Source of the DNA: Nocardiopsis ansamitocini
Lineage (GTDB): Bacteria > Actinomycetota > Actinomycetes > Streptosporangiales > Streptosporangiaceae
Direction of reading: 5' to 3'
Assembly (NCBI RefSeq): GCF_030268225.1
Contig: NZ_BSQG01000002.1
Span: forward strand, 124,001 to 188,000
Length of the DNA: 64,000 nucleotides
Part shown: positions 11,900 to 64,000 of the stretch, in pieces
Layout: each line of letters starts with the position of its first letter
Position numbering within the stretch: position 1 is the stretch's first letter
The notes under the pieces: model-generated
Database searches by the model: none
Told to the model about the DNA's origin: nothing
What the model saw: the letters and a program-made list of their open reading frames with translations, nothing else
Made by a program: the position numbers and the translations under genes

Positions 11900-12079
11900 A
11901 AAATCGTCCTGGCTCCCGCCGACCGCCGAGCACCCGGTCCGGAAGAACGGGAGGCCTCGCCGGTGGTGCCCGCCCGAGAGGGGGCTCAATACACATGCCG
12001 CGGCACACGGCTTGCTGCGGCGACGGGTGCACACCCGAAGCGGGCGGATGACGGTTCCGGCAGTGCGAGTGGAACGTGT

Positions 12080-12958: not shown

Positions 12959-13325
12959 CCGCGCGCGACGGCAACCACGGATCGCCGATCCCCCTATGCC
13001 GGCCCCAGGCGCGCCCAGGTGAGCCTGGGATCGGGAGGCCGTGGCTGCTTTCTCGGCTTGGGCCGAGAATCGATGCGGTGAACCGAGTACGACAGAGAAC
13101 GGGAGACGACGGACCTCTCGGGCAGGACCGCCGTCGCCGCGGGTCCGACGCAGGGAATCCGGCGGGGCGGGGCATCGGCCGGTCCCTCCTGATCGCGGGC
13201 GGCGCGATCAGGCGACCATCGCCCGGTCCGCATGCGGAGCCCGGCATCCGTTGAACGAGAAGACCCCGAACGCCTGCCGAGTCCTCACCGGGCACGCGTC
13301 AACGACGTCACGAAGGAGCAGAACC
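12959..13325. promoter_or_regulatory. Divergent intergenic region, XRE regulator and dehydrogenase
   Basis: A 367-bp non-coding stretch with promoters for both flanking genes. I could not find a convincing long inverted repeat. AAGGAG eight bases before the dehydrogenase ATG is the only clear signal. Confidence 0.4.
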
Positions 13326-28874: not shown

Positions 28875-28911
28875 ACTCTAGTTGTCACTGGCACGACGTA
28901 AGGTTGCTGCT

Positions 28912-29478
28912 GTGAAGACGAAGATACTTGAACTATTTGAAAAAGTTCGAGGCTGGCTAGTCGACTGGTGGTGGTTGGATCCGCCCGTTGCAGCAATTCT
29001 CTCGTTTATCTGCTGGTACCTGATTCCTCTGCGTAGTCAGTGGGATGTCCTAGGTAATCTTGACCTCCCAGTAAGACAAGCAATTTACACGGATATAATT
29101 CAACTTTCTACGATATTTGCTGGTTTCGGCGCGGTCGCTTTTACTGTTTTTATTAGTTCAAGTAGTCCGACAAGCATGAAGCTTAAAAATGGAGACTTAG
29201 GGCCGCGGATAATTCGCCTTTGGATTGCAGCACTTTCTTTTCCTTGGATTAGTGCTTTTGTAATTATTCTTGCAAAAGCTACAGATTCGGGTGGTGTTGG
29301 ATCGACTAGCATTTCAAGATGGCTAGTTCTCGGTGCTGTTCTCGTTATTTTGTTTCAAATGGTGCGCACGCTGCGTGTTTTTTATCAGATTTCTACTTTG
29401 GAGATTACAGAACAGAAGCCAGCAAGAAAAACTGCCTCTAAAGGGATAGTAATTGATAAGAATGGGGCACACTTGTGA
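28912..29478 (+). CDS. Low-GC cargo protein, four-helix membrane protein
   Basis: Membrane protein of about 188 residues from the GTG at 28912 (AAGG eight bases upstream); an in-frame TTG at 28882 would add ten. Four hydrophobic segments can be seen: PPVAAILSFICWYLIP, IIQLSTIFAGFGAVAFTVF, IRLWIAALSFPWISAFVII and WLVLGAVLVILFQMV. A charged cytosolic tail follows. Family not recognised. It shares low GC and strand with the upstream cytosolic protein gene. Pairs of a soluble protein and a small multi-pass protein are common among phage-defence effectors, so that role is a guess worth testing. Confidence 0.7.
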   Translation: MKTKILELFEKVRGWLVDWWWLDPPVAAILSFICWYLIPLRSQWDVLGNLDLPVRQAIYTDIIQLSTIFAGFGAVAFTVFISSSSPTSMKLKNGDLGPRIIRLWIAALSFPWISAFVIILAKATDSGGVGSTSISRWLVLGAVLVILFQMVRTLRVFYQISTLEITEQKPARKTASKGIVIDKNGAHL

Positions 29479-29483
29479 ACAAG

Positions 29484-30212
29484 TTATCGAAATTTTTTAC
29501 TATTTTCCCAGACTAAATTAAAGCTCTTTGTGTAGGTGGAGTACATTTCTCTTTCTGTGCTCTTGCTGAATGGAATAACTGGGGCGTTGGATGCAGGGGC
29601 TCCATAAATGTGAGGATTGATCATGAGGCGCTGGTCTGACTGGTATATTGAGTTATAGAGAATTGTGTCGTGAGTTCGAATCTCAATTCCTTCGACCTTT
29701 TGTAGATGTTGAGATAAAATTAGAGCATTTTTTATTTTTGCTTGCATTGAATTTCCTATTTTTTCTTCGTCTCCTCGATTCTTGACGTGAAAACTTCCAG
29801 GACTTCCGAGTGCAATTTTTACTGTCACTCCAGATTGCGCTTTTCTTATAAAAGTTTGCAAAATTTCCGGATCGTCAAACAGGAAAAAGCTGCTGTAGGC
29901 GAGTATCCCAATTTGGTCTTTTGCGGATTTAAAAAAATTGAGCCAAACTTGATGGGGGATAGTCCATCGGTGTGGATAAATATGCTCTGATTCTGTTGAA
30001 TCAGAGTGTTTTAAATCAGTTTTTTTATTTTCTGGCCATAGTTCGGCTCTTGAAGCCCCTGTGAGTTCGGCAACCGCCAACTGGTGCCGAGGGTAGGGCC
30101 GTTGGCCAAACAGCCAGCGACGCACGGTCTTCGGATTCACTCCGAGACGGGTGGCGACTTCGGCGTCTGTCAGGTGCGTGTTGGCAAGTGCCTGTCGCAG
30201 GGCCTCGTTCAC
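29484..30212 (-). CDS. HTH regulator with DUF5919-like domain, mosaic in base composition
   Basis: Protein of 242 residues from the GTG at 30212, which has GGAGG eight bases upstream; longer in-frame openings are poorly composed. The N-terminal helix-turn-helix is LTDAEVATRLGVNPKTVRRWLFG. After the shared hinge ELWPE comes a DUF5919/PLD-like domain (IGILAYSSFFLFDD, GVTVKIALGSPGS, RTHDTILYNSIYQSDQRLM, HIYGAPASNAPV). It is a paralogue of the gene at 32607. The first 58 codons are GC-rich while the rest (29484 to about 30037) is as AT-rich as the two cargo genes, to which it is convergent with only 5 bp between. The gene therefore looks like a domain swap. Confidence 0.85.
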   Translation of the reverse strand: MNEALRQALANTHLTDAEVATRLGVNPKTVRRWLFGQRPYPRHQLAVAELTGASRAELWPENKKTDLKHSDSTESEHIYPHRWTIPHQVWLNFFKSAKDQIGILAYSSFFLFDDPEILQTFIRKAQSGVTVKIALGSPGSFHVKNRGDEEKIGNSMQAKIKNALILSQHLQKVEGIEIRTHDTILYNSIYQSDQRLMINPHIYGAPASNAPVIPFSKSTEREMYSTYTKSFNLVWENSKKFR

Positions 30213-30253
30213 GTGGGTGACCTCCGTGGCGCGGGGGCTCCGACGATAACAGA

Positions 30254-30283
30254 AGACGTCCCTAGACGTCCCTGAAGATGTCC
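30254..30283. promoter_or_regulatory. AGACGTCCCT repeats, candidate operator of the mosaic regulator
   Basis: Two perfect tandem copies of AGACGTCCCT (30254-30263 and 30264-30273) and a weaker AAGATGTCC (30275-30283) lie 42 bp upstream of the regulator start. The same core lies 46 bp upstream of the paralogue at 33344 and in the left arm of the element. Confidence 0.6.
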
Positions 30284-30401
30284 GATACGGGGTACACATG
30301 TCCGCCTGATCAGGCGAGGGTTTCCGCAGATGAGAAGACCCCCGCAAGTGTCGTAAGCACTCCGGGGGCGCGGTCCCACCTTGATCGAGAGCAGGCGGAA
30401 C

Positions 30402-30650
30402 ATGCGGAACCCTATCGGGCGACCCCAGATCGGACACCCCTGGAAGAGTTCGGCCGCGCGTGCGCGGCCATACGTGCCGCTTCCCTTCACCCCTGAGCCT
30501 CGGGCCTACCCGGTGCTGCCCAAAGCGGCCTTGGTCCGCCCCTACGTGTTGGACAGTGAGCGGCGTCGCTGGCGGGAGTGCGCGGATCGGACACGGCTGG
30601 GTCTTGCGGTGCTCCTGGATATGGCTCGGCCGTTGGAGTTGGCCCTATGA
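30402..30650 (+). CDS. Small AICE protein, unknown function
   Basis: A frame of 82 residues opening MRNPIGRPQIGHPW and ending CADRTRLGLAVLLDMARPLELAL. The Leu/Arg-rich end is a style I associate with small conserved AICE genes near the regulatory region. It overlaps the next gene by ATGA, a sign of coupled translation. The start is uncertain (a TTG seven codons earlier is in frame). Confidence 0.5.
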   Translation: MRNPIGRPQIGHPWKSSAARARPYVPLPFTPEPRAYPVLPKAALVRPYVLDSERRRWRECADRTRLGLAVLLDMARPLELAL

Positions 30651-50851: not shown

Positions 50852-52096
50852 CTACTCCTCCTCGGTGCCGAGCCCGAGCCCGTTGGCGCAGGGGTTGGAG
50901 GTCGCGTCCCGACCGGTGATGGAGTCCTCTTCCGTGCCGCTCTGCTGCCCGACCGGCTCCGTCGGCGGCTCCGCAGGGTAGGAGGGTGAGGGGTCGGCCG
51001 AGGGGCTCGCCTCGGGTTCCTCGGGTTTTCCGGTCTCCAGCATCGCGTCGGTCACGGACTTGTCGTTGTTGATCGCCTTGAACAACTGATCGGCTTTCTC
51101 CTCGTCCCAGACCACCCGGTTGGGGTCGGAGGGCGCCTGCCACCAGGGAACCGTGTAGAAGGCGATCTCGTGCAGGTCCACGTCGGCCAGAGTCGAGCCG
51201 ATCGAGACCATCGTCTCCAAGGAGAGGTCGGCGTCGGTGGCGGTGTACTCGGTGACAGCGGAGAGCAGCGAGGTCATCCGGCTGGGGCTGGTCAGCACCT
51301 TGCTGCTGGTGACCTGTGCGGCCAGCGCTCCGAGGAACATCTGTTGGCGGTCGATGCGTCCGATGTCGCCGCCGTCACCGATCTCGTAACGGGCACGGAC
51401 GAACGCAAGGGACTGCTCGCCGTCCAACGTCTGCTCGCCCGCCTCCAGGTCGAGCTTGGCGCGCTCGTCGCTCATCGGCTCCGGGATGCACATCTCCACC
51501 CCGCCGACCGAGTCCACCATGTCGCGGAAACCCACGAAGCTCAGGTGCACGAAGTGGTCGATGCGGATCTCGGTGAGTGACTCGATCGTCTTGACCGCGC
51601 AGGGGGGCCCACCGTGGAACAGGGCGGCGTTGATCATCCCGTAGTAGCCGTAGGTTCCCTCGGAACCCTCGTAGGCCGAGCACTCCGGCAGTTGCACCAG
51701 GGAGTCGCGGGGGAAGTTGACGACGGTGACGCCGTTCTCCGGAGAGATGTGCGCCAGCATCAGCGAGTCCGAGCGTTCGCCGACGAAATCGCGGCCTCCG
51801 TAATCGGCGTTGCCGTCCTCCCGGCCGTCGGAGCCGATGAAGAGGATGTTGAGTTCTTCGCCGATCTTGGGCGGGCGTTCCTCGTCGGCGAGGGCTGTCC
51901 CGAGGTCGTGCTGCACCATGTTGGAGCGCAGCGAGCGGTAGTAGGCGTAGGCGGTGCCCACGCTCGCGAGCAGGACCACCACGAGTATCCCGGAGGTCCA
52001 GCCGAGGACGCGCGCCCATCGCCGGCGCCGGCGCGGAGGCTCTGTGGGGGCTGCCGCAGGGGCGTCGGGTGCGGGGACGGGGGCGTCATCGGACAT
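50852..52096 (-). CDS. LytR-CpsA-Psr (LCP) family cell-wall glycopolymer transferase
   Basis: A membrane-anchored extracytoplasmic enzyme of 414 residues from the ATG at 52096. Longer in-frame starts add a poor segment. A cytosolic Pro/Arg-rich N-terminus is followed by one transmembrane helix (GWTSGILVVVLLASVGTAYAY). The LCP domain follows, with ILFIGSDGREDGN, GERSDSLMLAHISPENG, VVNFPRDSLVQLP, INAALFHGGP and RARYEIGDGGDIGRIDRQQ, in which the conserved Arg/Asp residues bind the lipid pyrophosphate. The tail is Pro/Ser-rich. These enzymes attach teichoic acids or other polymers to peptidoglycan. Monocistronic. Confidence 0.92.
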   Translation of the reverse strand: MSDDAPVPAPDAPAAAPTEPPRRRRRWARVLGWTSGILVVVLLASVGTAYAYYRSLRSNMVQHDLGTALADEERPPKIGEELNILFIGSDGREDGNADYGGRDFVGERSDSLMLAHISPENGVTVVNFPRDSLVQLPECSAYEGSEGTYGYYGMINAALFHGGPPCAVKTIESLTEIRIDHFVHLSFVGFRDMVDSVGGVEMCIPEPMSDERAKLDLEAGEQTLDGEQSLAFVRARYEIGDGGDIGRIDRQQMFLGALAAQVTSSKVLTSPSRMTSLLSAVTEYTATDADLSLETMVSIGSTLADVDLHEIAFYTVPWWQAPSDPNRVVWDEEKADQLFKAINNDKSVTDAMLETGKPEEPEASPSADPSPSYPAEPPTEPVGQQSGTEEDSITGRDATSNPCANGLGLGTEEE

Positions 52097-52587
52097 GAAT
52101 GGAGGGTGCCTTCTGTCGGCTGCGATAAGAGTGCCGGACGGCGAGGGGCGAACATGCGCGCAAGACATGGCGGGAAAAGTCACCGCGAAACATCACGTCC
52201 GTCCGGTATAGAGCCGATCTTACGAGACTTGGCTGTGAAAAGCGCGTGTGGGTCGGCCGCCGGTTCCCGGTGCGTTCGGCCGACCGGCCGGAGGCGTCGA
52301 GAAGTCAGTGCTGGTGGGAGAGGAAGGGGGCGGGGCCGATCCGATGACGCAGGGGTGCAGCTAATGCGAAAAGTCCGTATTGATCCAGTTCGGCGCGCTT
52401 TTTTGGTGGTGGTCTCGGTGTTGCTGTGTCGATTCGGCGACAAGACGATCCATCGTCGGGTCGCAGAGAGGAAACGCCTTATAGGGTGCACACGTTTGCA
52501 GTTTCTGTGTGCCGCGCGCTGTCTTCACCGCTCTGACCGGGCTTATAGGTGCGCGGCCGGCATCGGCGCGTTGAACCGGACCCCCTT
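52097..52587. other. Intergenic, no gene seen
   Basis: About 490 bp upstream of the LCP gene. Frames are short and Arg-rich. A moderately AT-richer stretch at 52360-52520 may hold promoters. Confidence 0.4.
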
Positions 52588-53110: not shown

Positions 53111-53695
53111 TCAGACCTGCTGTTCCACCGTCACCTTGAGTCGGAAACCGGTTGATGATTCGGTGTGGTCACGGTCGTCGCCGGCATCGGCCAGGCGGAC
53201 CTTGAGGTAGAGGACGCGGTCCTGCCCGGCGGGCAGGGCGAGCCGATCGGTAGGGATCGGCCGGCCGGACGGCTCGGCGCCGGTGGCGATGCGTCGCCAG
53301 GTCAACACGGGGTCGTTCCAGTCCTGTGCGGCCCGTGTGCTGGAAGCGATCTCCAGGGTCCTGCTCAGCGGGGGGGTTCCGGTGTCGGAGACCTCGATGC
53401 TCTCCAGCCGGGTGAGCGTTCCGTCGAGGTCGCCGGTGTTGGTCAGGGTCAGGGCGAAGGCACCGTTGCGCGGCCACACGTCTCCCGGATCTGCCTCGGT
53501 GAAGTCGATCGTGATGGTGTCACCACCGCCGGGAGAGGTCGAGAGTTCCACCGAGAGCCGTCCCGCGGTCACGGGCTGGGGGCTTCCGGAGGTCTGCGCG
53601 GTGAAGGATGCCTGGGTGCCCAAGATGATGCCGCAGAGTGCTGCTGCAGCAGCTACCGCGCTGATCGCCACCAGCGTCGGCTTTTTGAGCCTCAT
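53111..53695 (-). CDS. TasA/camelysin-like exported protein 3
   Basis: An exported protein of 194 residues. The signal peptide LVAISAVAAAAALCGIILG is followed by TQASFTAQTSGSPQPVTAGRL, where ASFT plus the Gly-rich TAG step copies the cleavage region of SipW-dependent proteins such as TasA and CalY. The mature part is beta-rich with the family pattern of a surface strand pair (TITIDFTEADPGDVWPR, FALTLTNTGDLDGTL). No anchor or LPXTG. Third of three related genes on this strand, 50 bp after the second. It probably forms or joins surface fibres; this is inference. Confidence 0.8.
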   Translation of the reverse strand: MRLKKPTLVAISAVAAAAALCGIILGTQASFTAQTSGSPQPVTAGRLSVELSTSPGGGDTITIDFTEADPGDVWPRNGAFALTLTNTGDLDGTLTRLESIEVSDTGTPPLSRTLEIASSTRAAQDWNDPVLTWRRIATGAEPSGRPIPTDRLALPAGQDRVLYLKVRLADAGDDRDHTESSTGFRLKVTVEQQV

Positions 53696-53745
53696 CCCCG
53701 CGCTTCCTCCTGTCCGCTTCTCCGCTTGTTCGTTCTCCTCCCCGA

Positions 53746-54339
53746 TTAGACCTGACCGAGTCGGACGCTGAACACGAATTCCGTGTCCGCTCCCTGGAAC
53801 CGATTGTCGTGCTCAGGGGTGCCGTTGGGCCACCGCAACTGGAAACGCAGTTCGCTGGAGGTTCCTGCGGGCACTGTTGCGGGTGCTCGCCGTAGGGTTT
53901 CCAGCACCGATCCCGACTCCAGTCGGATCCATCCGCTGCCGCGCCCCCAGTCGGGTTCCCGTGCGCCGGCGACCATCCCGTAGCGGACTTCCAGGGCCTC
54001 GCTCAGGTCGGGGGTGTTCCCGGTTCCTTCGCTGGTCACTGTGAGATCCAGCGCCTCGAACTCGGCGAGGATCGATCCGGAGTTGGAGATGACCAGCGAG
54101 TAGGAATCGCGGGGGGAGGCCGGCCACTGGCCGCCGGGGGCGACGAGACCGAGTTTAAGCGGTCCGCTGGTACCGTCCGGCGAACGTTCGTTGATCTCGA
54201 CGGTGAGGTCGCCGGCGGTGATCTCGTTGGAGGGGGTGGTGTCGGTGGCGGTGAAATAGGCGTAGGTGCCGCCGATGGACAACAGCAACGCGCTGGTTGT
54301 CGCAGCAGCACCCAGGATAAGGATTTTCCGCTTTTTCAT
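53746..54339 (-). CDS. TasA/camelysin-like exported protein 2
   Basis: An exported protein of 197 residues from the ATG at 54339 (GGAGAGAG upstream). The N-terminus MKKRKILILGAAATTSALLL leads to GGTYAYFTATDTT and ITAGDLTVEI, the SipW-type signature (A-Y-F-T/S-D, then a TAGDL-like strand). The mature part has PGGQWPASPRDSYSLVISNSGSI, the conserved donor-strand region. LRFQLRWPNGTPEHDNRFQGA is shared almost word for word with protein 1 (LQWPNGTPEQDNPYKNA). It is separated from gene 1 by a strong stem-loop. Confidence 0.85.
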   Translation of the reverse strand: MKKRKILILGAAATTSALLLSIGGTYAYFTATDTTPSNEITAGDLTVEINERSPDGTSGPLKLGLVAPGGQWPASPRDSYSLVISNSGSILAEFEALDLTVTSEGTGNTPDLSEALEVRYGMVAGAREPDWGRGSGWIRLESGSVLETLRRAPATVPAGTSSELRFQLRWPNGTPEHDNRFQGADTEFVFSVRLGQV

Positions 54340-54377
54340 ATCGCGTCTCTCTCCACTGGGGGTTGGTGAGCGCGGAA

Positions 54378-54410
54378 CGTCCCGCACCGGTGGGGGACCG
54401 GTGCGGGACG
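54378..54410. terminator. Strong stem-loop between TasA-like genes 1 and 2
   Basis: CGTCCCGCACCGGT (54378-54391) pairs perfectly over 14 bp with ACCGGTGCGGGACG (54397-54410), loop GGGGG, 14 bp after the stop of gene 1. It would let gene 1 be made in excess over genes 2 and 3, or protect its mRNA 3' end. Confidence 0.75.
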
Positions 54411-54423
54411 GTGGCCGCGTACG

Positions 54424-55044
54424 CTAGCGGCCCTGGTTTTTCTGGTCCAGGTTGACCTGGAACTTGAAGGAGGTCGTGGCGTTCTTGTAGGGATTGTCCT
54501 GCTCGGGGGTCCCGTTGGGCCATTGGAGCTGGAAGTAGATGTAGACGGAAGCGCCTGCCCGCAGGGTCTTGTTCCCGGACAGGCCGCTCAGCTTGCCCAC
54601 GCGCAGGGCCTCGTAGCTGCCGGCGTCCCACGAGCCGGGTTCCCAGTTGGTGGGCTTGATGACGGCGCGGATCTGGAGGCGGTCGGCCAGGTTGGGCTGG
54701 CTTCCTCCCAGCTGTACGACCTCCAGCGAGTTGATGTCGCCGTCGATGGACCCGGTGTTGGTGACCTTGATCCGGTACCAGTCCGAGCCATACCAGGGCT
54801 GGTGCAGGCCCTGGACGTAGACCTGGCCGGGAGCGGCGTTCTCCACCTTGACCGGGAAGTCGGCGAGACCGCTGCCGTTCTGGCTGATCTGCAGACTCAG
54901 GTCGCCGGCCGAAATGGTCTGGTCGGCGGTCTGGGCGCTGTCGGTGAAGTAGGCGTAAGTGCCGCCGGTGATCGCCACCGCAGCACCGATGACCACCGCT
55001 GCACCGAGCCCGGCGATGAGCTTCTTACTCTTGCTGGTGGCCAT
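54424..55044 (-). CDS. TasA/camelysin-like exported protein 1
   Basis: An exported protein of 206 residues from the ATG at 55044. The signal peptide is SKSKKLIAGLGAAVVIGAAV, then GGTYAYFTDSAQ and TISAGDLSLQI. The AYFTD step is the cleavage signature of SipW-dependent substrates. The mature part is beta-rich (VYVQGLHQPWYGSDWYRIKVTNTG in two motifs, VYIYFQLQWPNGTPEQDN). No anchor is seen. It is first in the three-gene minus-strand operon and is followed by a strong stem-loop, so it is probably the major subunit. The SipW-type peptidase that would process it lies at 57035. Confidence 0.85.
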   Translation of the reverse strand: MATSKSKKLIAGLGAAVVIGAAVAITGGTYAYFTDSAQTADQTISAGDLSLQISQNGSGLADFPVKVENAAPGQVYVQGLHQPWYGSDWYRIKVTNTGSIDGDINSLEVVQLGGSQPNLADRLQIRAVIKPTNWEPGSWDAGSYEALRVGKLSGLSGNKTLRAGASVYIYFQLQWPNGTPEQDNPYKNATTSFKFQVNLDQKNQGR

Positions 55045-55487
55045 CTGGAGGTCCACTTCCTTCCACGCTGTCTGCCTGTTGATAAGGCCCGGGGGATGAG
55101 CGGGTTGGAAGGGCGACACACCCGGAGGGGAAGTCCGGGCGACAGCAAATGGTGGGCGCGTCGAACCGGCCCGTTACCCGTGATCCGGCCATCCGGTGAT
55201 ACCGGGTGGCGGGGAGACGGGCAGCGGGCCGGTCAGGGGGATGTAACGCGCTGCCCGGGTCCGGACGGTGCACTGTCGCCGTCCGTCATCGACCCTTCCA
55301 ACCTGCCGGGAATCACTCTGCCCGAGACCGGTGTTGCGGTCATCCTCAAAGTGGACGAAGTGCCTTTCCCCCTTTTTGGCGATGCTGCGGCCGGTATCGG
55401 AGCGAAACAGTGAGTGTGGACATGCGCGTCAGTAATCGACAATGGACAACCGTAGAGCCGGGCGATCCGGGTCCGGGAGCGAAAGCC
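55045..55487. promoter_or_regulatory. Divergent promoter region of the surface-protein locus
   Basis: About 440 bp between the minus-strand TasA-like operon and the plus-strand genes. No protein-like frame fits. It must contain both promoters and is the natural target for the LuxR-type regulator at 59379. No clear repeat was found by eye. Confidence 0.45.
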
Positions 55488-55895
55488 ATGAGCGTGAAGC
55501 GTGCCGACCGGTACGGGACCGGCCTTGTGGGCGGGCCCGCAGTGCTGCTGACGGTTGTCGTGGCTGCCGCGATTCTGACGTTCGACCATCCGGGCACCAC
55601 CACCGCGGCCTTCACCGTGCAGGCAACGACTGCCCCCTTCGAGGTCAGCGGCCCCTCGGCGAGTCCGTCGCCGTCGGCTTCCCCGTCGCCGTCACCCTCA
55701 CCCTCCGTCGAACCCGCTCCTTCGCCCCGCGACTCGGACGGCCCAGATGTCGAACAGCCGCCCGACCATGTTCCCGACCCGCCTGACAGTGCGCCGGACG
55801 GCCCCGGTGAGCCACCCCATCATCAGGACGGGGGCCATGGGCATCCCGCCCCACCCAGCGCTGGGCCCTCGGCCCCCGTCGCGCCATCCCCGTGA
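55488..55895 (+). CDS. Exported protein with TasA-like leader and Ser/Pro-rich tail
   Basis: A protein of 135 residues from the ATG at 55488. One hydrophobic segment (GPAVLLTVVVAAAILTF) is followed by TTTAAFTVQATTAPFEV, which imitates the ASFTAQT and AYFTATD steps of the TasA-like proteins. After that come about 80 residues of Ser/Pro/Asp/His (SPSASPSPSPSPSVEPAP). It looks like a TasA-type leader with the globular part replaced by a flexible stalk, perhaps a cell-wall spacer or fibre anchor. The start is not certain. Confidence 0.6.
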   Translation: MSVKRADRYGTGLVGGPAVLLTVVVAAAILTFDHPGTTTAAFTVQATTAPFEVSGPSASPSPSASPSPSPSPSVEPAPSPRDSDGPDVEQPPDHVPDPPDSAPDGPGEPPHHQDGGHGHPAPPSAGPSAPVAPSP

Positions 55896-55914
55896 GACAC
55901 CAAGAGGTGACGAG

Positions 55915-56691
55915 ATGATCCAGCGCGTGCGCTGTAGACCTCGCCTTATCGCCCGAACGACCGTGCTCCTGCTCGGGGCTGCCGTGCTGGTCGCGGGAGG
56001 TCCGGCCGCGAGCGCGGCGACCTCCTCCGGCGGTTCCGTCACGGTTGGACCCAAGGGCATCGATCTCTCCGGACTGGAGGAGATCACGGTTTCCGACATA
56101 GCGCCGGGATACCGGGAGCTGTGGTCGGTCCGAGTGGTCAACGACCGTTCCGAAGCCGTGACCCTGGGAGTCCGGTTGGGTGACCTCGTGGACGACGACA
56201 ACGGGTGCAGCGAACCAGAGGCCCGCGAGGACACCACCTGCGGGGCCGGTGAGGGTGAACTGGGTTCGTATCTGGAGTTCGCGTTCGGTGACGCGGATGC
56301 GCAGCCGTCCGCGACGGTGCTCGCGGAGGCTGCAGAGGGGGCCGGAGAGGCCGTCACGGTTCCCGCGGGCGGTGAGGCCGACGTAGTGCTGGGGCTGCAC
56401 CTGCCGGCCGGCACGGGCAACATCGTGCAGACCGATTCCGTTTCCTTCTCTCTCACCTGGAGGGCCGAGGCCGTGCCGGGGGGCGGGGGCGCGGTGGTCG
56501 AGAACGACGTCCAGGTGTACTCCTCCGCTGCCGGTAACGGGGCTGGTCCGGGGCTTCCGGTGTCTGGTGCGGCCCTGTTCGCTTTCATGGGCCTGGCGGT
56601 AGCGCTGATCGCTGCCGGAGCGCTACTGGTGCTGTACGTCCGCGACGTCGCCGCCGGCGGACGCGGGGTGGAGGCACCGGCTCCGCGCTGA
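55915..56691 (+). CDS. Membrane-anchored surface protein of the TasA-like locus
   Basis: A protein of 258 residues from the ATG at 55915 (AGAGG upstream). It has a signal peptide (ARTTVLLLGAAVLVAGGPAASA), an extracellular beta-rich domain with TVGPKGIDLSGLEEITVSDIAPG and WSVRVVNDRSEAVTLGVRL, one Cys pair (NGCSEPEAREDTTCG), and a C-terminal transmembrane helix (FMGLAVALIAAGALLVLYV) with a short basic tail. It likely anchors or nucleates fibres on the cell. It follows the Ser/Pro-rich gene by 19 bp. Confidence 0.75.
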   Translation: MIQRVRCRPRLIARTTVLLLGAAVLVAGGPAASAATSSGGSVTVGPKGIDLSGLEEITVSDIAPGYRELWSVRVVNDRSEAVTLGVRLGDLVDDDNGCSEPEAREDTTCGAGEGELGSYLEFAFGDADAQPSATVLAEAAEGAGEAVTVPAGGEADVVLGLHLPAGTGNIVQTDSVSFSLTWRAEAVPGGGGAVVENDVQVYSSAAGNGAGPGLPVSGAALFAFMGLAVALIAAGALLVLYVRDVAAGGRGVEAPAPR

Positions 56692-57034
56692 CCGGTACGT
56701 GTGGCCCCGGATGCCCGAACCTCTGCGGAGGTCCGGGCATCCAACCGTTATGGATCGATCTGGCGAGCCTTAAACGAGTTTTCGGGTCTCCGATACCTGG
56801 GGCTTGGAAAATCGGCCTCAATGCTGGATCTTTGTGCCTGCTATAAGGAATCTTCGTAAAATCGTTCGCGGGATCGACCCTTTTAGCATCGTTGTCTTTT
56901 TGTGACATTGGGTTTTCCGGGGAACGTGAGATTTTCGCCGGACGTGGTCGGCCGTGTAGGCAAGGAACGGTCAGGAGGAGAACACGTCGCCAGTGGCGCG
57001 GCTCGGTGCACTGCCGGGCGAGGAGGGGGGCCGG
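56692..57034. other. Intergenic, promoter of the peptidase/two-component operon
   Basis: A 343-bp stretch without a gene, with AT-richer parts (56760-56900) that fit a promoter for the signal peptidase gene and its downstream kinase/regulator pair. Confidence 0.45.
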
Positions 57035-57760
57035 ATGGCCAAGAGTGGTGCGGTATCCGACGGTGGACGTGCAAAGACCGGTGAGGCGTCTGGAAAGACG
57101 GAGAGACCCGACCGGTCGAAAAAGCCGCGAAAACGTTCGGTGATCCAACGAATCCTCTCGGTGCTGTTTCGTTGTGTCATCGGGCTTCTGCTGGTGGCGG
57201 CGTTGGCCGTCGTCTTTTCGGTCTCGATCCTGCCGCGACTCACCAATGCCCAGGCGTTGATCGTGCTCAGCGGGAGCATGGAGCCGACCATTCCCGTCGG
57301 TTCGGTCGTGATCTCCCGCCCGGTCGACCCCGCGGAACTGCGCGTCAACGACGTCATCACCTTCACGCACGGCAGCCCCGCCCAGACCGACGCCTTCGAC
57401 CCCGCCAACTCGCCGTTGGTGACCCACCGTGTCGTCCAGATAGAGACCACCCCCCAGGGGCGCGTCTTCCACACCCAGGGCGACGCCAACGATGTCCGTG
57501 ACGACCCCCCTGTGACCGCAGCCGATGTCCATGGTCGGGTTTGGTACCACATCCCCTATTTCGGTTACGCCCAGCAGGCCATGACCCAGGGGCCCACCAC
57601 CCTGTACGTTCTGGCCGGGATGCTGTTCGTTTTCGGGATCTGGCTGCTCAGCGTGGCCCTTGGCGACGATGATGACGAGGACGAGGACGACGACCGCTCG
57701 GAAGAGCCCGATCCGGAGGACGCACCACACGCGCCCCGGGGTCAGGAAGCCCCCCGATGA
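57035..57760 (+). CDS. sipW: SipW-type signal peptidase I (Ser/His)
   Basis: A membrane peptidase of 241 residues from the ATG at 57035 (GAGGAGGG upstream). A basic cytosolic start is followed by a transmembrane helix (FRCVIGLLLVAALAVVFSVS). The catalytic Ser81 is in LSGSMEPTIPVGS. His131 in LVTHRVV takes the place of the usual bacterial Lys, which marks the archaeal/ER-type S26B subgroup to which SipW belongs. Box E is GDANDVRDDPPV. A second helix and an acidic tail end the protein. SipW processes TasA-like proteins; three such proteins are coded next door. Confidence 0.9.
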   Translation: MAKSGAVSDGGRAKTGEASGKTERPDRSKKPRKRSVIQRILSVLFRCVIGLLLVAALAVVFSVSILPRLTNAQALIVLSGSMEPTIPVGSVVISRPVDPAELRVNDVITFTHGSPAQTDAFDPANSPLVTHRVVQIETTPQGRVFHTQGDANDVRDDPPVTAADVHGRVWYHIPYFGYAQQAMTQGPTTLYVLAGMLFVFGIWLLSVALGDDDDEDEDDDRSEEPDPEDAPHAPRGQEAPR

Positions 57761-57802
57761 GCGGTCGAACCACCCCCCGATCGGTCGAAGGACTGCTTCG
57801 CC

Positions 57803-59392
57803 ATGCGCAAACTCGCTCTGGAGTCGGCCGCCGTACTGGCCGTGATCATTACCGCCGTCCTGGCCCTGGACCACGCTGAGAACTGGTCCGATCTGGGCAC
57901 CCCCCAACTGCGGTCGTCGCTGGCGATGTTCAGTGCCGCGGTCGCCATCACAGCGGCGCTGGTCGCGGAGCTCGTCGCCCGGCTCGGTGACCTCCCCGCC
58001 CTGCGCCGGGTGTCGGCGGCGATGGCCGTATACGCGCTGATCGTCATCCCCGCCACGGCTGCGGTCGCGGTCAACACCGTGGACAACATCGTGGTGGCGG
58101 CCGTGCGCTACAGCGCCACGATCGCGGTCGGCGGTCTGCTCCTGCTCGCGGTGGCCACCTTCGACCGGCCCCGCCCCTGGCCGGTCCCCGGCCTGCGCAA
58201 CCCCCTCACCGGCCTTCGCGGACTGCTGGTCGGAGTCCTGTGCGCGGTGCTCGGCGGAACCGCGGCCGCGCTCTTCCCCACCGAGGGTTACGCGGTGGTC
58301 AGTTCCCCGCTGCTGGTCGGCGGCGTCTCGCTGCTCTGGTTGAACGTCGGAGCCACCACGCTGATCTCCGGGCTGCTGCGCCACCGCAGGTTCCTGGTCT
58401 GGCTGGGACTCGGCTCACTCGCGAGCGTCAGCGGGTATGCCCCCCGGTTGTGGCTGGGCGAGCCATCGGCCGGCTCCTTCCTGCTGGTTCCCGGCATGCG
58501 CGCGCTGGGGGTCCTCCTGACCCTTGTCGCGGTGCTTCAGCTCGCCTACCACCTCTACCAGCAGATCGCCGTTGACCAGAGGCGCCTCGAAGAGGCGCAG
58601 GCCGAGGCCGTGGAGGTGCGCGAGCGCATGTCCGAGCAGGCCCACGAGCTGCGCAACGCCCTGGCCGGAGTGGACGGTGCCGCCCAGTTGCTGGCGATGG
58701 AGGACAGCGGTGGCGCCGATCTCGACCGCGCTGCTCTGCGCGCCGCACTGTCCGCGGAACTGAACCGGATGCGTACCATGCTGGAATCGGAGTCCGCCCG
58801 ACGCCCCGCGAGCAAGGTCCACCTCAAGGCGCTCCTCGAACAGCTCGTGCTGATCCGGCGAACCAACGGAATGCGGATCGAACTCACCGCCGAGCACGAC
58901 GTCGACGTCGACGTACCGCCCGACGTGATCGCTCAGATCATCACCAACATCCTCGCCAACTGCGAGCGCCACGCCCCCGGTGCCCGTGTCTGGGTCGAGG
59001 CGTACCGGCTCGGCACGATGGCGCAGATCCGGATCCAGGACGACGGCCCCGGAGTGCCGGCAGGGATGGAGCACGAAGTGCTGTGCCGCGGGGTGAAGAG
59101 CGCCAAGTCCGTCGGTGACGGTATCGGGCTCCACGTCTGCCAGGAACTGGTGACCCAGCACGGCGGGCGGCTGCGCCTCGCGCCCACGCGGCCCGATCGC
59201 CCCGGCTGCGTTCTGACCGTGGACCTTCCGATCGAGGCGGGCGATCCCGCCCCCTCGAACGAGTCTCCGCGACGCAGTCATCGCGGAGCCAGGACCCGCT
59301 GGCTCGGCGCGCGCCGGCCCAGCGGTGCTTCGACCGCCCCCACCAGCCCATCGACCCCCACCAGTTTCGGGAGCGCAAATGCAGGTCAGTGA
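57803..59392 (+). CDS. Multi-pass sensor histidine kinase
   Basis: A kinase of 529 residues. About eight hydrophobic segments fill residues 5-250. Then a helical dimerisation region holds the acceptor His in RMSEQAHELRNALAGVDGAAQLL. The HATPase domain has IAQIITNILANCERHAPGA (N box), QDDGPGVPAGM and GDGIGLHVCQELVTQHGGRL. A 55-residue Arg/Ser/Pro-rich tail follows. The stop overlaps the response regulator start by 14 bases. It lies 42 bp after the signal peptidase gene, so it is probably cotranscribed and concerned with the surface-protein locus. Confidence 0.9.
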   Translation: MRKLALESAAVLAVIITAVLALDHAENWSDLGTPQLRSSLAMFSAAVAITAALVAELVARLGDLPALRRVSAAMAVYALIVIPATAAVAVNTVDNIVVAAVRYSATIAVGGLLLLAVATFDRPRPWPVPGLRNPLTGLRGLLVGVLCAVLGGTAAALFPTEGYAVVSSPLLVGGVSLLWLNVGATTLISGLLRHRRFLVWLGLGSLASVSGYAPRLWLGEPSAGSFLLVPGMRALGVLLTLVAVLQLAYHLYQQIAVDQRRLEEAQAEAVEVRERMSEQAHELRNALAGVDGAAQLLAMEDSGGADLDRAALRAALSAELNRMRTMLESESARRPASKVHLKALLEQLVLIRRTNGMRIELTAEHDVDVDVPPDVIAQIITNILANCERHAPGARVWVEAYRLGTMAQIRIQDDGPGVPAGMEHEVLCRGVKSAKSVGDGIGLHVCQELVTQHGGRLRLAPTRPDRPGCVLTVDLPIEAGDPAPSNESPRRSHRGARTRWLGARRPSGASTAPTSPSTPTSFGSANAGQ

Positions 59393-60068
59393 CGTTCGCA
59401 CCGACCCCGCCGTGTTCATCATCGACGACCATGCGCTGATCAGCACCACTATCGAGTTCACGCTCAAGGGACGCGGTATCAACGCGGTCCGTGCCCAGGT
59501 CCTTGGAAAGACACAGCTCCAGGGGCAGGCCGCGACGTTGCAGCCGGGGCTGGTGTTGCTCGACCTCGATTTGGGCAACGGCGTGGACGGACGCCCCCTC
59601 GACGCCGCGACCCTGGCCGGGGAGTTCGTCGTCCAGGGGTGGACGGTGCTGATCCTGACCGGTAGCACCGACCGCGGACGTATCGCCGCCGCGATCGCTG
59701 CCGGAGCCGCGGGATGGCTTTCCAAGGCAGCGCCCTTCCCCGACCTGATCTACGCGATTTTGGACGCTCTGGCCGGACGTCCGGTGATGGACGCCGGTGA
59801 GCGCGAGCGCTTGTTGGTCGAGCACCGGGCGGCACAGGCCCAGCGTCGTTCCTCCGATCAGGTCCTGAGCCGGCTCACCAGCAGGGAACGCGAGGTCCTC
59901 GCCCAATTGGAAGCGGGCAAGCGGGCCACCGTGATCGCCGAGGAGTCATTCGTCTCGATCTCCACCGTTCGCTCCCAGATCCGGTCGATCCTGTCCAAGC
60001 TCAACGTGAAGTCCCAGTTGGAGGCGGTTGCTCTTGCGCGCTCGCTGCGCAAGCAGCGGCGGGTGTGA
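59379..60068 (+). CDS. LuxR-type response regulator
   Basis: A protein of 229 residues from the ATG at 59379 (GGAG six bases upstream). The receiver domain has FIIDDHALI near residue 14 and Asp62 in VLLDLDLGNGVDG. The C-terminal helix-turn-helix is LTSREREVLAQLEAGKRATVIA and FVSISTVRSQIRSILSKLNV. It is translated together with the kinase (14-base overlap). It may control the divergent promoters at 55.0-55.5 kb. It differs from the DevR-like protein at 42467. Confidence 0.92.
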   Translation: MQVSDVRTDPAVFIIDDHALISTTIEFTLKGRGINAVRAQVLGKTQLQGQAATLQPGLVLLDLDLGNGVDGRPLDAATLAGEFVVQGWTVLILTGSTDRGRIAAAIAAGAAGWLSKAAPFPDLIYAILDALAGRPVMDAGERERLLVEHRAAQAQRRSSDQVLSRLTSREREVLAQLEAGKRATVIAEESFVSISTVRSQIRSILSKLNVKSQLEAVALARSLRKQRRV

Positions 60069-60717: not shown

Positions 60718-61233
60718 TCACGGGCCCCCGGCCGATTGCTCCTGCTGCGCGAGTGCACCGGCGAGTGCGAACAGCCGAGCGAGAGCGCGTTCGTTGTTGA
60801 CGGTGTTGGCCGGATTCAACTCCGTGAGACGGCGCAGTGTCTTGGCGCCTTCGGTTGCGAGCAGCCCGACGAGTTCCTTCTCCCGCACGGACGAGGAGGT
60901 GATGACTTCCCGTCCCCGCCATGCCGTGACCTCGAACAGCAGCCAGTCGCCTCGGCGTCTGGTCAGGGTGGCGGTCAGCGGCTGGTCGGGGAAATCCATC
61001 CTCCCCGAGCCGTGTGCGAAGAACTGCGCGACCATGTCCACGAGGTACCACCAGAGGAACTCGATGTCGTCCCACAGGTCGGTGGTGAGGACCGCTTTGC
61101 CGCTGAGGACGAGTTCGATCGCGCCCTCCGGGTAGGCGCGGCCCTCGCCGTGCGCCTCAGGGGAGAAGATGTCGACGAACTCGCCGTGCCGGGTGCGCAG
61201 GTAGGTCGAGAGCCTGGGGGCACTAGCCGTCAT
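60718..61233 (-). CDS. Putative immunity protein, intact copy
   Basis: A protein of 171 residues from the ATG at 61233. It has an alpha/beta fold with VDIFSPEAHGEGRAYPEGAIELVLSG, DLWDDIEFLWWYLVDMVAQFF and a C-terminal helical part (VREKELVGLLATEGAKTLRRL, LNPANTVNNERALARL). The C-terminal half is closely copied by the fragment at 61990-62221. Family not recognised. Its place in the row of small genes behind a polymorphic toxin suggests an immunity role. Confidence 0.7.
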   Translation of the reverse strand: MTASAPRLSTYLRTRHGEFVDIFSPEAHGEGRAYPEGAIELVLSGKAVLTTDLWDDIEFLWWYLVDMVAQFFAHGSGRMDFPDQPLTATLTRRRGDWLLFEVTAWRGREVITSSSVREKELVGLLATEGAKTLRRLTELNPANTVNNERALARLFALAGALAQQEQSAGGP

Positions 61234-61316
61234 CGCCTGCCGTCCTCTCCGGATTTCGGACCGGGAGGACCGTGCCGACCACTGGTCGACGCGGCTGCCC
61301 CCGTCCCGGAAACCGC

Positions 61317-61823
61317 TCATTGCGAAGCGCGTCGCCGTTTCTCCTTGGCCTCGGTGTTGGCGCGGTCCTGTTCGCGCGCGTACTCCCAGTACTCGGGCGG
61401 GTGGTCGGCGGCCGTCGCCACGAACGAGCGGAAAAAGTCCGCGGCATGTCGGGCCTCGCCGCTCCCCTCCAGGTACGACCAGACGCCGGGGGCGTCGGAG
61501 CGGAAGAAGTAGAGCAGGTATCCCTGGTGCACGCAGAAGAAGAAGCATCCGTCGGTGACGAGGCCGGGATCCTCCTCGGCGGCGAATTCCTCGGCGTAGT
61601 CGTTGAAGTCCAGGCAGCCGGGGTAGTAGAGATCCGTCCCACGGAAGAGGTTGCCCGCGCCCCGGCCGAACGCCGTGAGGAAGCCCGTGTAGTCGTCGGG
61701 CGGCCGAACGGACGGTTTCGTGGCGAGGACGCGCTCCACCTCAGCATCGGTGCATACTACGATCTCGTCGGGGTGCGCGGCGCCGCTGGCCAGGAGCGTT
61801 CTCTTGAGTGTTTTTATACCCAG
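61317..61823 (-). CDS. SUKH-type (SMI1/KNR4) immunity protein
   Basis: SUKH-superfamily protein, a common immunity family against nuclease toxins. The visible core is PPDDYTGFLTAFGRGAGNLFRGTDLYYPGCL, FFFCVHQGYLLYFFRSDAPGVW and DFFRSFV, quoted by motif. Homology-like sequence continues upstream of the GTG at 61739 (TLLASGAAHPDEIVVCTDAEV), which is where this family normally starts. No ATG, GTG or TTG lies in that part. A CTG at 61823 is the only plausible start, so either a rare start is used or the true start is lost and the shorter protein (140 residues) is made. Confidence 0.65.
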   Translation of the reverse strand: MGIKTLKRTLLASGAAHPDEIVVCTDAEVERVLATKPSVRPPDDYTGFLTAFGRGAGNLFRGTDLYYPGCLDFNDYAEEFAAEEDPGLVTDGCFFFCVHQGYLLYFFRSDAPGVWSYLEGSGEARHAADFFRSFVATAADHPPEYWEYAREQDRANTEAKEKRRRASQ

Positions 61824-61989
61824 AGATACTTCTGGCGGTATGAGAGGCGGCCGCGCCTGCTCGATGGATCCGTCCGAGGCGCCGGCCGGAACGCTGCATC
61901 CAGGTACAGGAGGTGGGGAGAGGCGGGGAGACCCTGCGCGAGAGTCGGTCTCATGAATGGAAATGCCTCTTCACCGTTCTTCCCGACCG

Positions 61990-62221
61990 TCAGGTGACGC
62001 TGAGGGCGGAGAGCCGGGCCAGGGCGCGTTCGTGGGCGGTGGCGTTGGCCGGATTCAATTCCGCTAACCGGTTCAGGGTCCTGATCCCTTCGGCTTTGAC
62101 CAGGCCGATGAGTTCACTGTCGCGCGCGGAGGAGGAAGTGATCTCCTCGCCCTGCCACGACGTCACCCGGAACAGCAGCCATTCCCTTTCTTTCTCCTCA
62201 CGGGAACGCCCGGCCGTTCGC
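61990..62221 (-). pseudogene. Remnant of a second copy of the immunity gene at 60718
   Basis: The minus strand reads EWLLFRVTSWQGEEITSSSA, RDSELIGLVKAEGIRTLNRL and ELNPANATAHERALARLSALSV before a stop, matching the C-terminal half of the intact protein. No start codon lies in this frame. The ATG overlapping the upstream gene's stop is in another frame and soon terminates. The N-terminal half is gone. This is a decayed duplicate. Confidence 0.7.
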
Positions 62222-62725
62222 TCATCGACTGGCGGGGCCGTCCGGCGCCTGCGCGAAGGTCACGGTGGGCCCGTAAGCGCCGTCTTGCTCGTCGGTCACC
62301 GTGACGACGATGTCATGCCGAGGGTGACGGCGTGGGAGGAGCCCCTGCCAGCACTCCCCGATGGCGTAGGCCAGCTGCCGGAGGTTCTCCTCACCGTAGG
62401 AGTCGACTCCGACGTTGGTGAAGACGTCGAACAGAGAGGTCGTGTTGACCATCGACTCCGCACGGCGGACGTCGCCGCCGAAGTAAGCGATCCAACGGTC
62501 GGCGGTCTCCGTGCCGGCTTCGGCGAGGAACACCCCGCCCCGGTGTTCGATGGTCTCGGGGCAGAACAGCCACGCGGCGGCGAGAACGTAGGGGTAGGCC
62601 GCCTCCTGATCCAGGTAGGCGGTCGGGGTCAGTGTGCGCGACCCGCCGAAGCGCTCTCGCCAGGTCCCGACGAACTCCGGCTCGGTTCTCCCATGCCAGA
62701 AAGGCCGCTCACTACTCATAGTCAC
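62222..62725 (-). CDS. Putative immunity protein next to the Ntox24-like toxin
   Basis: A protein of 167 residues starting GTG ACT ATG, with the GTG overlapping the toxin stop by four bases (GTGA). It is therefore translated together with the toxin, the usual arrangement of toxin and cognate immunity. It is soluble with Trp/Tyr-rich helices (RPFWHGRTEPEFVGTWRERF in part, YPYVLAAAWLFCPETI, RWIAYFGGD, QLAYAIGECWQGLL). The family is not recognised. It probably binds and blocks the adjoining toxin domain. Confidence 0.75.
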   Translation of the reverse strand: MTMSSERPFWHGRTEPEFVGTWRERFGGSRTLTPTAYLDQEAAYPYVLAAAWLFCPETIEHRGGVFLAEAGTETADRWIAYFGGDVRRAESMVNTTSLFDVFTNVGVDSYGEENLRQLAYAIGECWQGLLPRRHPRHDIVVTVTDEQDGAYGPTVTFAQAPDGPASR

Positions 62726-64000
62726 AGTTTCTCGTCCGGACGGGCAGGACGCACATCGTTGCGGAGTCCTTGCACGTGGATCTCACCGCTGGGCGTTTGA
62801 TTGTGCTGGTATGGAATCACATGCGGAGTTTCGATACCCGAATGGGCTGCTCCCGTGAGATCGACCCGCTTTATGGCATTCCCGTTTCCGTCATAGACGA
62901 TGTAGTTGGTGACATCTCCCGTCTGGGGATCCTGCTTGTAGAGGGTCTGGTTGGGAGGACCTCCTTGCGCGGGCAGGTTACGTCCTCGCCAGAATGGACT
63001 GTTCTTATCGTATTTCTGCCCAGAACTGATCAGTTCTGGCGCCGGCGGAAGATGCGAATCATCTGGAATGCACGAATTGCTGTTGTGGACGAGTAGGGGT
63101 GTTTCGCCGGCGACGACGTGGTAGGTGTGCAGGTCCTCAACGGTGAGGTTGTGGACCTGCTGGTCGGCCACGGTGCGCACGTCCACCGCGTCGGCTTGGA
63201 CCCAGGTGCCGGTGGAGGTGCGCAGCCACGAGCCGGGCTCCAGGTCGGCGGCGTCGACCCACTGGGCGAGGTCGGGGACCCAGAAGGGGTGGGCATCGGT
63301 AGCGGTGATGGTCGCGGTGTGGCCGTCGGTGTCGGTGATCGTGATGTCGACCAGGGTCTTGGCGCCTGAGCCCTCGATGAGGTGGGTGACCTCGCGCGGT
63401 GCGCTCTCACCGGTGAGCGGGTCGGTGGCCAGCACTTCGTGGCCCACCTGCACCGCTTCGATGGGTGTGGTCGAACCATCGGCCATGAGCACCAGGGTCG
63501 CGGGGATGAAACTGTTGGGGCCCCGGGGGCACGAGATGGCGTCCTGGTCGCGGTTCCCCCCATCCGAATCCGAATCCGAATCCGAATCGGAGTTGGAGTT
63601 GGAGTCGCGGTTGTTGCCGCCGAGGCCGAAGGCCCGGTCGATCTTCTTGCCCCAACCGAGGAAGGGGATGAACCCGATCAGGGTGTCGCCCACGACCTGG
63701 GAACCCGCGTGCAGCCGCTCGCCGTCGTCCCAGTCGGCCTGGGCCTCCTCGCTGACGAACAGGTCCTTGACGAAACCCCACGGGTCGCTGGTGGCGGCGT
63801 CCCAGGTACCGGTCACCCCGCCCCACACCGAGTCCCACGTGTCAGAAGCCCACTGCCCGGGGTCGTTCCACAGGTCACCGGCGCCGTTCCAGAGTCCTAC
63901 CGCGCCGTCTTTGACGTCGCCCACGAAGCCCGCGCCGGAGTCCCACAGGCCGCTGCCGATGGCCGAGCCCTTGTCCCAGGTCCAATCCCAGGCGTCGGTG
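62722..64000 (-). CDS. Polymorphic toxin, C-terminal part (HINT plus Ntox24-like tail), 5' end beyond window
   Basis: The frame is open to the window edge, so this is the last 425 residues of a larger protein. Seen in order: Trp/Asp/Gly-rich repeats (GLWNGAGDLWNDPGQW, DTWDSVWGGVTGTWD); a Ser-Asp run coded by repeated GATTCG units; a HINT domain from SCPRGPNSFIPATLVLMADG to HPFWVPDLAQW and ending LLVHNSNS; then a toxin tail of about 105 residues with NYIVYDGNGNAIKRVDLTG and HSGIETPHVIPYQHNQ, which resembles polymorphic toxin type 24 (Ntox24). The HINT domain opens with Ser/Cys context and ends with N, so self-cleavage may release the tail. The immunity gene overlaps the stop. Confidence 0.85.
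   Translation of the reverse strand, partial: TDAWDWTWDKGSAIGSGLWDSGAGFVGDVKDGAVGLWNGAGDLWNDPGQWASDTWDSVWGGVTGTWDAATSDPWGFVKDLFVSEEAQADWDDGERLHAGSQVVGDTLIGFIPFLGWGKKIDRAFGLGGNNRDSNSNSDSDSDSDSDGGNRDQDAISCPRGPNSFIPATLVLMADGSTTPIEAVQVGHEVLATDPLTGESAPREVTHLIEGSGAKTLVDITITDTDGHTATITATDAHPFWVPDLAQWVDAADLEPGSWLRTSTGTWVQADAVDVRTVADQQVHNLTVEDLHTYHVVAGETPLLVHNSNSCIPDDSHLPPAPELISSGQKYDKNSPFWRGRNLPAQGGPPNQTLYKQDPQTGDVTNYIVYDGNGNAIKRVDLTGAAHSGIETPHVIPYQHNQTPSGEIHVQGLRNDVRPARPDEKL

Follow-up and report, generated by a model that had tools for sequence, protein, structure and literature searches.

A conserved actinomycete locus of TasA-like proteins, a SipW-type peptidase and a two-component system, with a predicted role in surface-fibre formation

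The locus described here raises the question of whether TasA-like exported proteins, a SipW-type signal peptidase, and a two-component system, encoded side by side in an actinomycete, work together as a single fibre-building unit. The window, which is the whole 64,000-nucleotide stretch of DNA that was analysed, comes from Nocardiopsis ansamitocini, a filamentous relative of Thermobifida that lives in soil, with a genome of 5.5 Mb and 67% GC. The reading favoured here, with a probability of approximately 0.7, is that the locus encodes a self-contained, regulated, and wall-anchored system of surface fibres of the donor-strand type.

Gene order and its conservation

Eight genes occupy positions 53111-60068 of the window, and both the coordinates and, with corrections to the fourth and fifth exported proteins, the protein families assigned to them in the preliminary description are confirmed. 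The genes of the exported proteins T3, T2, and T1 lie on the minus strand, and those of SP4, A5, the peptidase, the kinase, and the response regulator diverge from them on the plus strand. This order is kept in six relatives (four Thermobifida and members of two other genera), that is, in seven genomes including that of the window, with seven of the eight genes being present in all six relatives and the Ser/Pro gene SP4 in five. Given that the order is kept in six further genomes, the eight-gene set represents more than a chance assembly, and a lack of co-occurrence in relatives, which would have counted against the fibre proposal, is not what is seen. An orthologue of the peptidase is found in seven of the 151 genomes of the family, and these are the same seven that encode SipW-type (TIGR04088) substrates. 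A scan of contigs confirmed at least two Thermobifida loci among the matches listed, whose number was probably swollen by an Asp/Glu pattern of low complexity. The search of the locus against Rfam returned no match.

The divergent promoter region contains a non-coding block at 55338..55384, running from GGTCATCCnCAAAGTGnACGAAGT to TTTTTGGCGATG, which is near-invariant in six genomes, and whose core has a single site in the 5.5-Mb genome when up to one mismatch is allowed. It is a candidate site for the regulator. A peptide-coding role for this block was rejected, as indels shift the frame in one relative (L020), and the bases, including those at third positions, are largely fixed. A second block in this region, GGTCAGGGGGATGT (55231..55250), is also near-invariant in the six genomes. 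Upstream of the peptidase gene, the conserved TTCGTAAAATC (56853..56863, plus strand), with CGTAAAAT invariant in six genomes, is a candidate promoter of the peptidase, kinase, and regulator genes. The scan for sigma-70 promoters found none, this model being uninformative for an actinomycete of 67% GC.

The exported proteins and their peptidase

The three minus-strand proteins are of the SipW-dependent TasA type, as originally proposed, with all three exceeding the curated cut-off of 19 bits for the SipW-dependent signal (TIGR04088). T3 (54424..55044) has the leader GGTYA|YFTDSAQ and an ISAGDL strand, and scores 32.4 bits for TIGR04088 and 29.3 bits for the camelysin/TasA family PF12389, for which the gathering cut-off is 22.5 bits. 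This second threshold is also passed by T2 (53746..54339), which scores 25.0 bits, with 32.6 bits for TIGR04088. The most diverged of the three, T1 (53111..53695), scores 22.5 bits for TIGR04088, falls below the PF12389 cut-off, and has no Pfam match, but is homologous to T2 and T3 by alignment. Both T1 and T2 have orthologues in all six relatives, and are probably minor subunits. T3, which retains 66-75% identity in the relatives and has the highest GC3 of the eight genes (0.90), is predicted to be the major fibre subunit. Between the T3 and T2 genes is a hairpin with a perfect 14-bp stem (54378..54410), which has two sites in the genome as a whole; its core, CCCGCACCGG/CCGGTGCGGG, is unchanged in all of the seven genomes except one (L021), where it differs slightly. 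This hairpin is a candidate 3' end or stabiliser of the T3 mRNA.

The peptidase (57035..57760, plus strand, with an in-frame alternative start, GTG, at 56993) is an ER-type signal peptidase I, with 90 bits for TIGR02228 against a cut-off of 51.85. Numbered from the ATG at 57035, its Ser81 and His131 are invariant in the seven orthologues, and His131 falls on the HRV motif of human SEC11A in the alignment (E 4e-9), which bears out the earlier claim that the catalytic Lys is replaced by His, as in SipW. The score for the equivalog of the Bacillus SipW (NF046067) is 75.9 bits, below the cut-off of 190, and the peptidase is thus of the same type as the SipW of Bacillus, rather than its orthologue. 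T3, T2, and T1 would be exported by the Sec pathway and cut by this neighbouring peptidase just before the Y/S-F-T motif.

The fifth exported protein, A5 (55915..56691, plus strand), combines a TasA-related domain with an ordinary Sec leader (AASA|A) and a C-terminal sorting signal. Its C-terminus in the window reads LPVSGA, followed by a transmembrane segment and a tail, so that the motif is LPVSG, which is neither LAxTG nor LPxTG. The orthologues end in LAxTGA in Thermobifida and in one other relative (L016), and in LPLTGA in another (L018). In place of the original label of a membrane-anchored protein, A5 is better described as a sortase-type anchored protein, given the LAxTG and LPxTG ends of its relatives. 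The only sortase of the genome is of class E (188.8 bits, cut-off 160). Like SP4, A5 falls below the TIGR04088 cut-off of 19 bits, and the comparison of its profile with PDB sequences returned nothing useful; the profile does match a SipW-dependent protein from another family (L060), with a probability of 95.9 and an E-value of 6e-9. Its structural model is poor (pLDDT 54), and recovered mixed beta-sandwich matches, with TasA (5of1) in eighth place. With a domain like that of the subunits, an ordinary leader, and a sorting signal at its C-terminus, A5 is predicted to be the wall-anchored base of the fibre.

The possible use of such a fibre is a separate question from its mechanism. A hyphal or spore coat formed during development, in the role that chaplins play in Streptomyces, rather than a biofilm, is a serious possibility, albeit one that we hold somewhat below even odds. 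The lineage of the host is filamentous, and chaplins are anchored by class E sortases (PMC5148588), the A5 of the relatives bearing the same LAxTG signal. On the other side stands the spread of the module's relatives over many families, some of whose genomes measure 3-4 Mb.

SP4 (55488..55895, plus strand) is made up of a leader, a mature start with the sequence AFTVxATTPxxEV, and a Ser/Pro tail that is disordered and of low complexity. The mature start is strongly conserved in the window and five relatives, and SP4 was not detected in L018. The protein has no globular domain and no family match in Pfam or NCBIfam. It had been described as carrying the same leader as the TasA-like proteins on a Ser/Pro stalk; the leader does not score on TIGR04088, despite the strong conservation of the mature start. 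SP4 is a candidate donor-strand initiator or cap: lacking a domain, it may present an N-terminus that resembles a donor strand, and so start or cap the fibres.

The fold of T3 and the case for a polymer

TasA fibres are known to assemble through donor-strand exchange (PMC9674648). When the AF2 model of T3 was compared with 350,542 PDB chains, the top match was the TasA fibre 8aur (E 4.7e-4, probability 0.98), and two archaeal donor-strand pili were among the first five, the bundling pilus of Pyrobaculum (7ueg) being third and the 0406 (thread) filament of Sulfolobus (7pnb) fifth. The prediction of a TasA-like fold is thus not refuted, although the model is only moderate, with a mean pLDDT of 61 and a TM score of 0.34 to TasA. 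The profiles of T1-T3 recovered no TasA chain and nothing useful among the PDB sequences.

These matches bear on the reading that the exported proteins do not polymerise, and are instead camelysin-like proteins, whether protease, adhesin, or coat, either soluble or associated with the wall, with the peptidase and the two-component system serving their secretion alone. PF12389 is named after camelysin, a cell-surface protease activity, and the fold model of T3 is not of high confidence, but the best structural matches of T3 are fibres rather than proteases, and three paralogues with a sortase-type relative suit a polymer with a base and minor subunits. We regard the non-polymerising reading as improbable. 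In the donor-strand fibre favoured here, the N-terminus freed by the peptidase would fill the groove of the next subunit, with T3 predominating, and A5 would form the wall-linked base.

The kinase-regulator pair and its association with SipW

The membrane histidine kinase (57803..59392, plus strand) has an HELRN H-box and a HATPase_c domain, and starts 42 bases after the peptidase gene, while the start of the NarL-type response regulator (59379..60068, plus strand) overlaps the end of the kinase gene. Both exceed the Pfam cut-offs for their domains (HisKA, PF00512, and HATPase_c, PF02518; Response_reg, PF00072, and GerE, PF00196). The peptidase, kinase, and regulator genes do stand in a row, as first noted. 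Among the 151 genomes of the family, orthologues of the kinase are found in the seven that bear the peptidase and in one other (G045), which has lost SipW and A5, and retains the kinase-regulator pair with one T-like gene.

In a second family (L060), the kinase, regulator, T, SipW, and A5 genes form an operon, with an A5 that ends in LPRTG, and in a third (L103), an A5 ending in LPFTG precedes the pair. Six or more further families of actinomycetes have SipW beside a kinase of this type, and in seven or more the pair is linked to either SipW or A5, with the regulator retaining 34-71% identity across the linked loci. Of 20 homologous kinases from outside the clade, five have a SipW gene at a distance of approximately 3 kb or less, against some 0.06 expected (Poisson P ~5e-9), and the SipW-linked kinases cluster on the tree (four changes, compared with 10 when shuffled). 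Many of the homologous kinases lie away from any SipW gene, and SipW-type peptidases are present in 125 of the 395 genomes of the class, often beside TasA-like genes. The reading of the SipW-kinase link as an artefact of common genes was rejected on the basis of both the expected count and the clustering.

That the pair is an unrelated neighbour, leaving only the TasA/SipW part as the unit, is very unlikely, since the absence of such a kinase near most actinomycete SipW loci and the separate promoter-like block upstream of the peptidase gene are outweighed by the 42-base spacing, the recurrent linkage across families, and the persistence of the pair with a T-like gene where SipW was lost. As part of the regulated fibre system, the pair would sense an envelope signal and control the divergent promoters accordingly. 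More tentatively, the locus may represent a widespread and undescribed actinobacterial class of fibres, started by SP4 as a free donor peptide and joined covalently to the wall by A5 as a sortase-anchored, TasA-like base, in which the kinase and regulator monitor the export or assembly of their own fibre and adjust its expression.

Comparison with known fibre systems

Thermobifida fusca is a culturable degrader of cellulose, and, as it has the same gene set, it would allow fibre formation, wall anchoring, and regulation to be put to a direct test. The recurring link between this kinase family and SipW also offers a route to the signals to which such fibres respond. Fibres of the TasA donor-strand type are known from Bacillus and from archaea (PMC9674648, PMC10151520, PMC9715654). 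In the open-access literature searched, no description was found of such a fibre in an actinomycete, nor of SipW in actinobacteria or with a histidine kinase.

As in the tapA-sipW-tasA operon of Bacillus subtilis, an ER-type signal peptidase adjoins its camelysin-family substrate, and the TasA fibre is the nearest solved fold to the T3 model. The donor N-terminus shared by the accessory protein of that operon (PMC10151520) is a further likeness, while no TapA was named among the eight proteins by Pfam or NCBIfam. Unlike the operon, the locus has three diverged TasA paralogues, A5, SP4, the kinase-regulator pair, and a divergent arrangement. The sipW-calY1-bc_1280-calY2 system of Bacillus cereus (TasA/CalY/CapP) resembles it in having two or more camelysins per SipW (PMC10151520), and likewise has an accessory protein and forms hetero-filaments (PMC13082335). 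That system is described as sortase-independent, whereas in the present locus the accessory protein ends in a predicted sorting signal, and a two-component system adjoins the genes. The archaeal pili matched by the T3 model, such as the Sulfolobus thread (PMC9715654), belong to a different domain of life.

In other actinomycetes, TasA/SipW pairs are common, and have already been annotated and named by NCBIfam (TIGR04088/TIGR04089), so that the system is not undescribed in this respect. Most of these pairs lack the kinase, the regulator, and A5, and the new part of the locus is its dedicated two-component system, its wall anchor, and its Ser/Pro leader protein.

Organization of the cluster and its surroundings

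The interval 53111-60068 contains three genes on the minus strand and five on the plus strand. The former encode the TasA-like exported proteins T1 (53111-53695), T2 (53746-54339), and T3 (54424-55044), all of which exceed the cut-off of TIGR04088 (SipW-dependent signals), with T2 and T3 also exceeding that of Pfam PF12389 (the camelysin/TasA family), which supports the TasA/CalY-like character attributed to them in the preliminary description. The plus-strand genes are SP4 (55488-55895), which encodes a leader followed by Ser/Pro-rich sequence, A5 (55915-56691), with a Sec leader and a predicted C-terminal sorting signal, sipW (57035-57760), a histidine kinase (57803-59392), and a NarL-type response regulator (59379-60068). 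The gap between sipW and the kinase gene is 42 bases, and the kinase and regulator genes overlap.

The SipW-like His131 noted previously in the ER-type signal peptidase is borne out by a TIGR02228 match over the cut-off, the presence of Ser81 and His131, and the alignment of its THRV with the HRV motif of human SEC11A. The residue Asp150, located 19 residues past His131, is invariant in seven orthologues; Bacillus SipW relies on Ser47 and His87, together with an Asp at this same spacing from the His.

Candidate regulatory elements include two blocks of the divergent region (55231-55250 and 55338-55384) that hardly vary across six genomes and CGTAAAAT, upstream of sipW, which is invariant in six genomes. 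The second block has a core that occurs once genome-wide. A hairpin between T3 and T2 is found in 7/7 genomes, its stem core being the same in six and slightly changed in locus L021, and this hairpin type has one other site in the whole genome.

Elsewhere in the window, a 2034-residue RHS-repeat protein (17587-23691, plus strand), with 24 PF05593 stretches, DUF6531, and a C-terminal PT-HINT domain, is by family a polymorphic toxin. The region 60718-63924 (minus strand) encodes a PT-HINT protein that carries a Bacterial toxin 24 (Ntox24) domain (62722-63924) and has small genes alongside, one of which (61317-61739) is weakly SUKH-like, below the cut-off; the predicted fibre cluster thus probably has toxin-immunity genes as neighbours. 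A low-GC island (27948-30437; 41% GC at 28001-30000 vs. about 67%) has the look of a recent acquisition; its products are a helix-turn-helix protein, a small membrane protein, and a protein of 308 aa.

The predicted fibre and its accessory proteins

The structure of T3 was modelled by AlphaFold2 from nine sequences (the window, L027, and L028), with a mean pLDDT of 61, reaching 72-86 at residues 91-180 apart from the ends, and below 50 at residues 1-47. When this model was searched by Foldseek against 350,542 PDB chains, the best match was the TasA fibre 8aur (E 4.7e-4, probability 0.98, TM 0.34); in third place was the Pyrobaculum bundling pilus, and in fifth the Sulfolobus 0406 filament. Donor-strand exchange is the mode of assembly of TasA fibres (PMC9674648), and the presence of donor-strand fibres as three of the five top matches is a persuasive argument for a TasA-like fold. 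In the T3 model, the fold anticipated for these proteins has TasA as its best structural match, although the low TM and model quality leave the assignment at moderate strength; a sequence-profile search of the PDB did not reach TasA. T3 has the highest GC3 of the eight genes (0.90) and, whichever codon position is compared, differs least between the window and L016, which makes it the likely major subunit of the predicted fibre.

A5, described as membrane-anchored, more probably has a sortase-type anchor: its hydrophobic stretch and short tail are in each case preceded by a motif (LAxTGA in the Thermobifida orthologues and L016, LPLTGA in L018, LPVSGA in the window) that in the relatives has the form of a sorting signal. 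The LAxTG motif is a class E sortase signal (PMC5148588), and the single sortase of the genome is of class E (NF033747, 188.8 bits). The leader of A5 is of the ordinary Sec type. Its profile matches a SipW-dependent protein of L060, a locus in another family (probability 95.9, E 6e-9), with which it shares an ENGC...C motif and an NxxQxDSxxF stretch. A weaker match (59%) is that to the T1-T3 profile. By these comparisons, A5 is related to the TasA-like proteins, and we infer that it would form the wall-linked base of the fibre.

In SP4, the leader is followed by AFTVxATTPxxEV, conserved with small changes in the window and five relatives, and then by a Ser/Pro-rich stretch that varies and contains no domain. 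TapA starts TasA fibres, and the N-termini of the two are nearly identical, AFHDI and AFNDI, respectively (PMC10151520). SP4 may be a donor strand on a tether that serves as initiator or cap, the least certain of the roles proposed here.

Conservation and association with the kinase

The order of the cluster is the same in six other genomes of the GTDB family, including Thermobifida fusca NBRC 14071, T. cellulosilytica TB100, and two more with their genus code. All six have T1, T2, T3, A5, sipW, the kinase, and the regulator, and SP4 was detected in five, the exception being L018. Among 151 family genomes, a close SipW orthologue (E < 1e-80) is present in seven, exactly those with TIGR04088-signal proteins, so the expected co-occurrence of peptidase and substrates was found, although shared ancestry (four genera) reduces it to fewer than seven independent events. 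The kinase orthologue is found in these seven and in G045, a genome that has lost SipW and A5. What G045 retains, the kinase, the regulator, and a single diverged T-like gene, links the regulator pair with the T proteins. In four more genomes of the family, all SipW relatives are distant ones (E 1e-4 to 1e-11), with weakly TasA-like neighbours in three and the kinase in none.

An LCP-family (LytR-CpsA-Psr) gene (50852-52183, minus strand) lies near T1, and 6/6 relatives have one no more than several kb away from the cluster, on varying sides; it may have a role in wall attachment or be merely a stable neighbour. In L017 (genome G086, a single contig), the kinase frame is split (9379-10811, changing near 9621-9624); either the sequence is in error here or the strain has a broken kinase.

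SipW-type peptidases occur in 125 of the 395 class genomes, usually near TasA-like genes and usually without the kinase. A kinase profile search over these genomes provided 20 further loci (E < about 1e-38), picked by kinase score rather than position, of which five, from five families (f6, f26, f31, f38, and f40), have a SipW gene within about 3 kb, where about 0.06 would be expected (Poisson P about 5e-9, with the rate of 0.058 derived by hand from the class-genome SipW counts). The SipW-linked kinases cluster on the kinase tree (4 changes vs. a shuffled mean of 10), and of the three kinases in their group that lack the link, two are on contigs whose length (4.6 and 6.0 kb) does not allow a judgement. 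In L060, kinase, regulator, T, SipW, and A5 genes follow one another in this order and are co-directional, with A5 ending in LPRTG and followed by an exported protein of SipW type with RTX-like repeats, and L103, at a contig end, has A5 (LPFTG), kinase, and regulator. Given this proximity, the tree clustering, and the L060 and L103 loci, kinase-regulator pairs of this type recur as partners of SipW in actinomycetes, and the linkage in five families, together with the pair retained in G045, makes it likely that kinase and regulator belong with the T-SipW set.

RTX-like (GGxGxDxL-type) repeat proteins with SipW-type or similar leaders adjoin SipW-kinase loci of two different families (L060, 5892-7619, minus strand; L106, 10877-11761, plus strand). 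In two genomes of family f26, three or four SipW-type peptidase genes alternate with TasA-like genes over about 7 kb (L066 of G481, 7800-13000; L073 of G408, 6891-14026).

Comparison with known systems

The locus had been proposed as an undescribed surface-fibre system, and no description was found in the open-access literature of a dedicated two-component system with TasA/SipW, of a sortase-anchored TasA relative, or of a leader-only Ser/Pro protein in such a system. These three components would be the new part of the proposal; the other parts of the system are already known, given that TasA homologues have been recorded outside Bacillus (PMC10151520), and that SipW-dependent signals are already named in NCBIfam.
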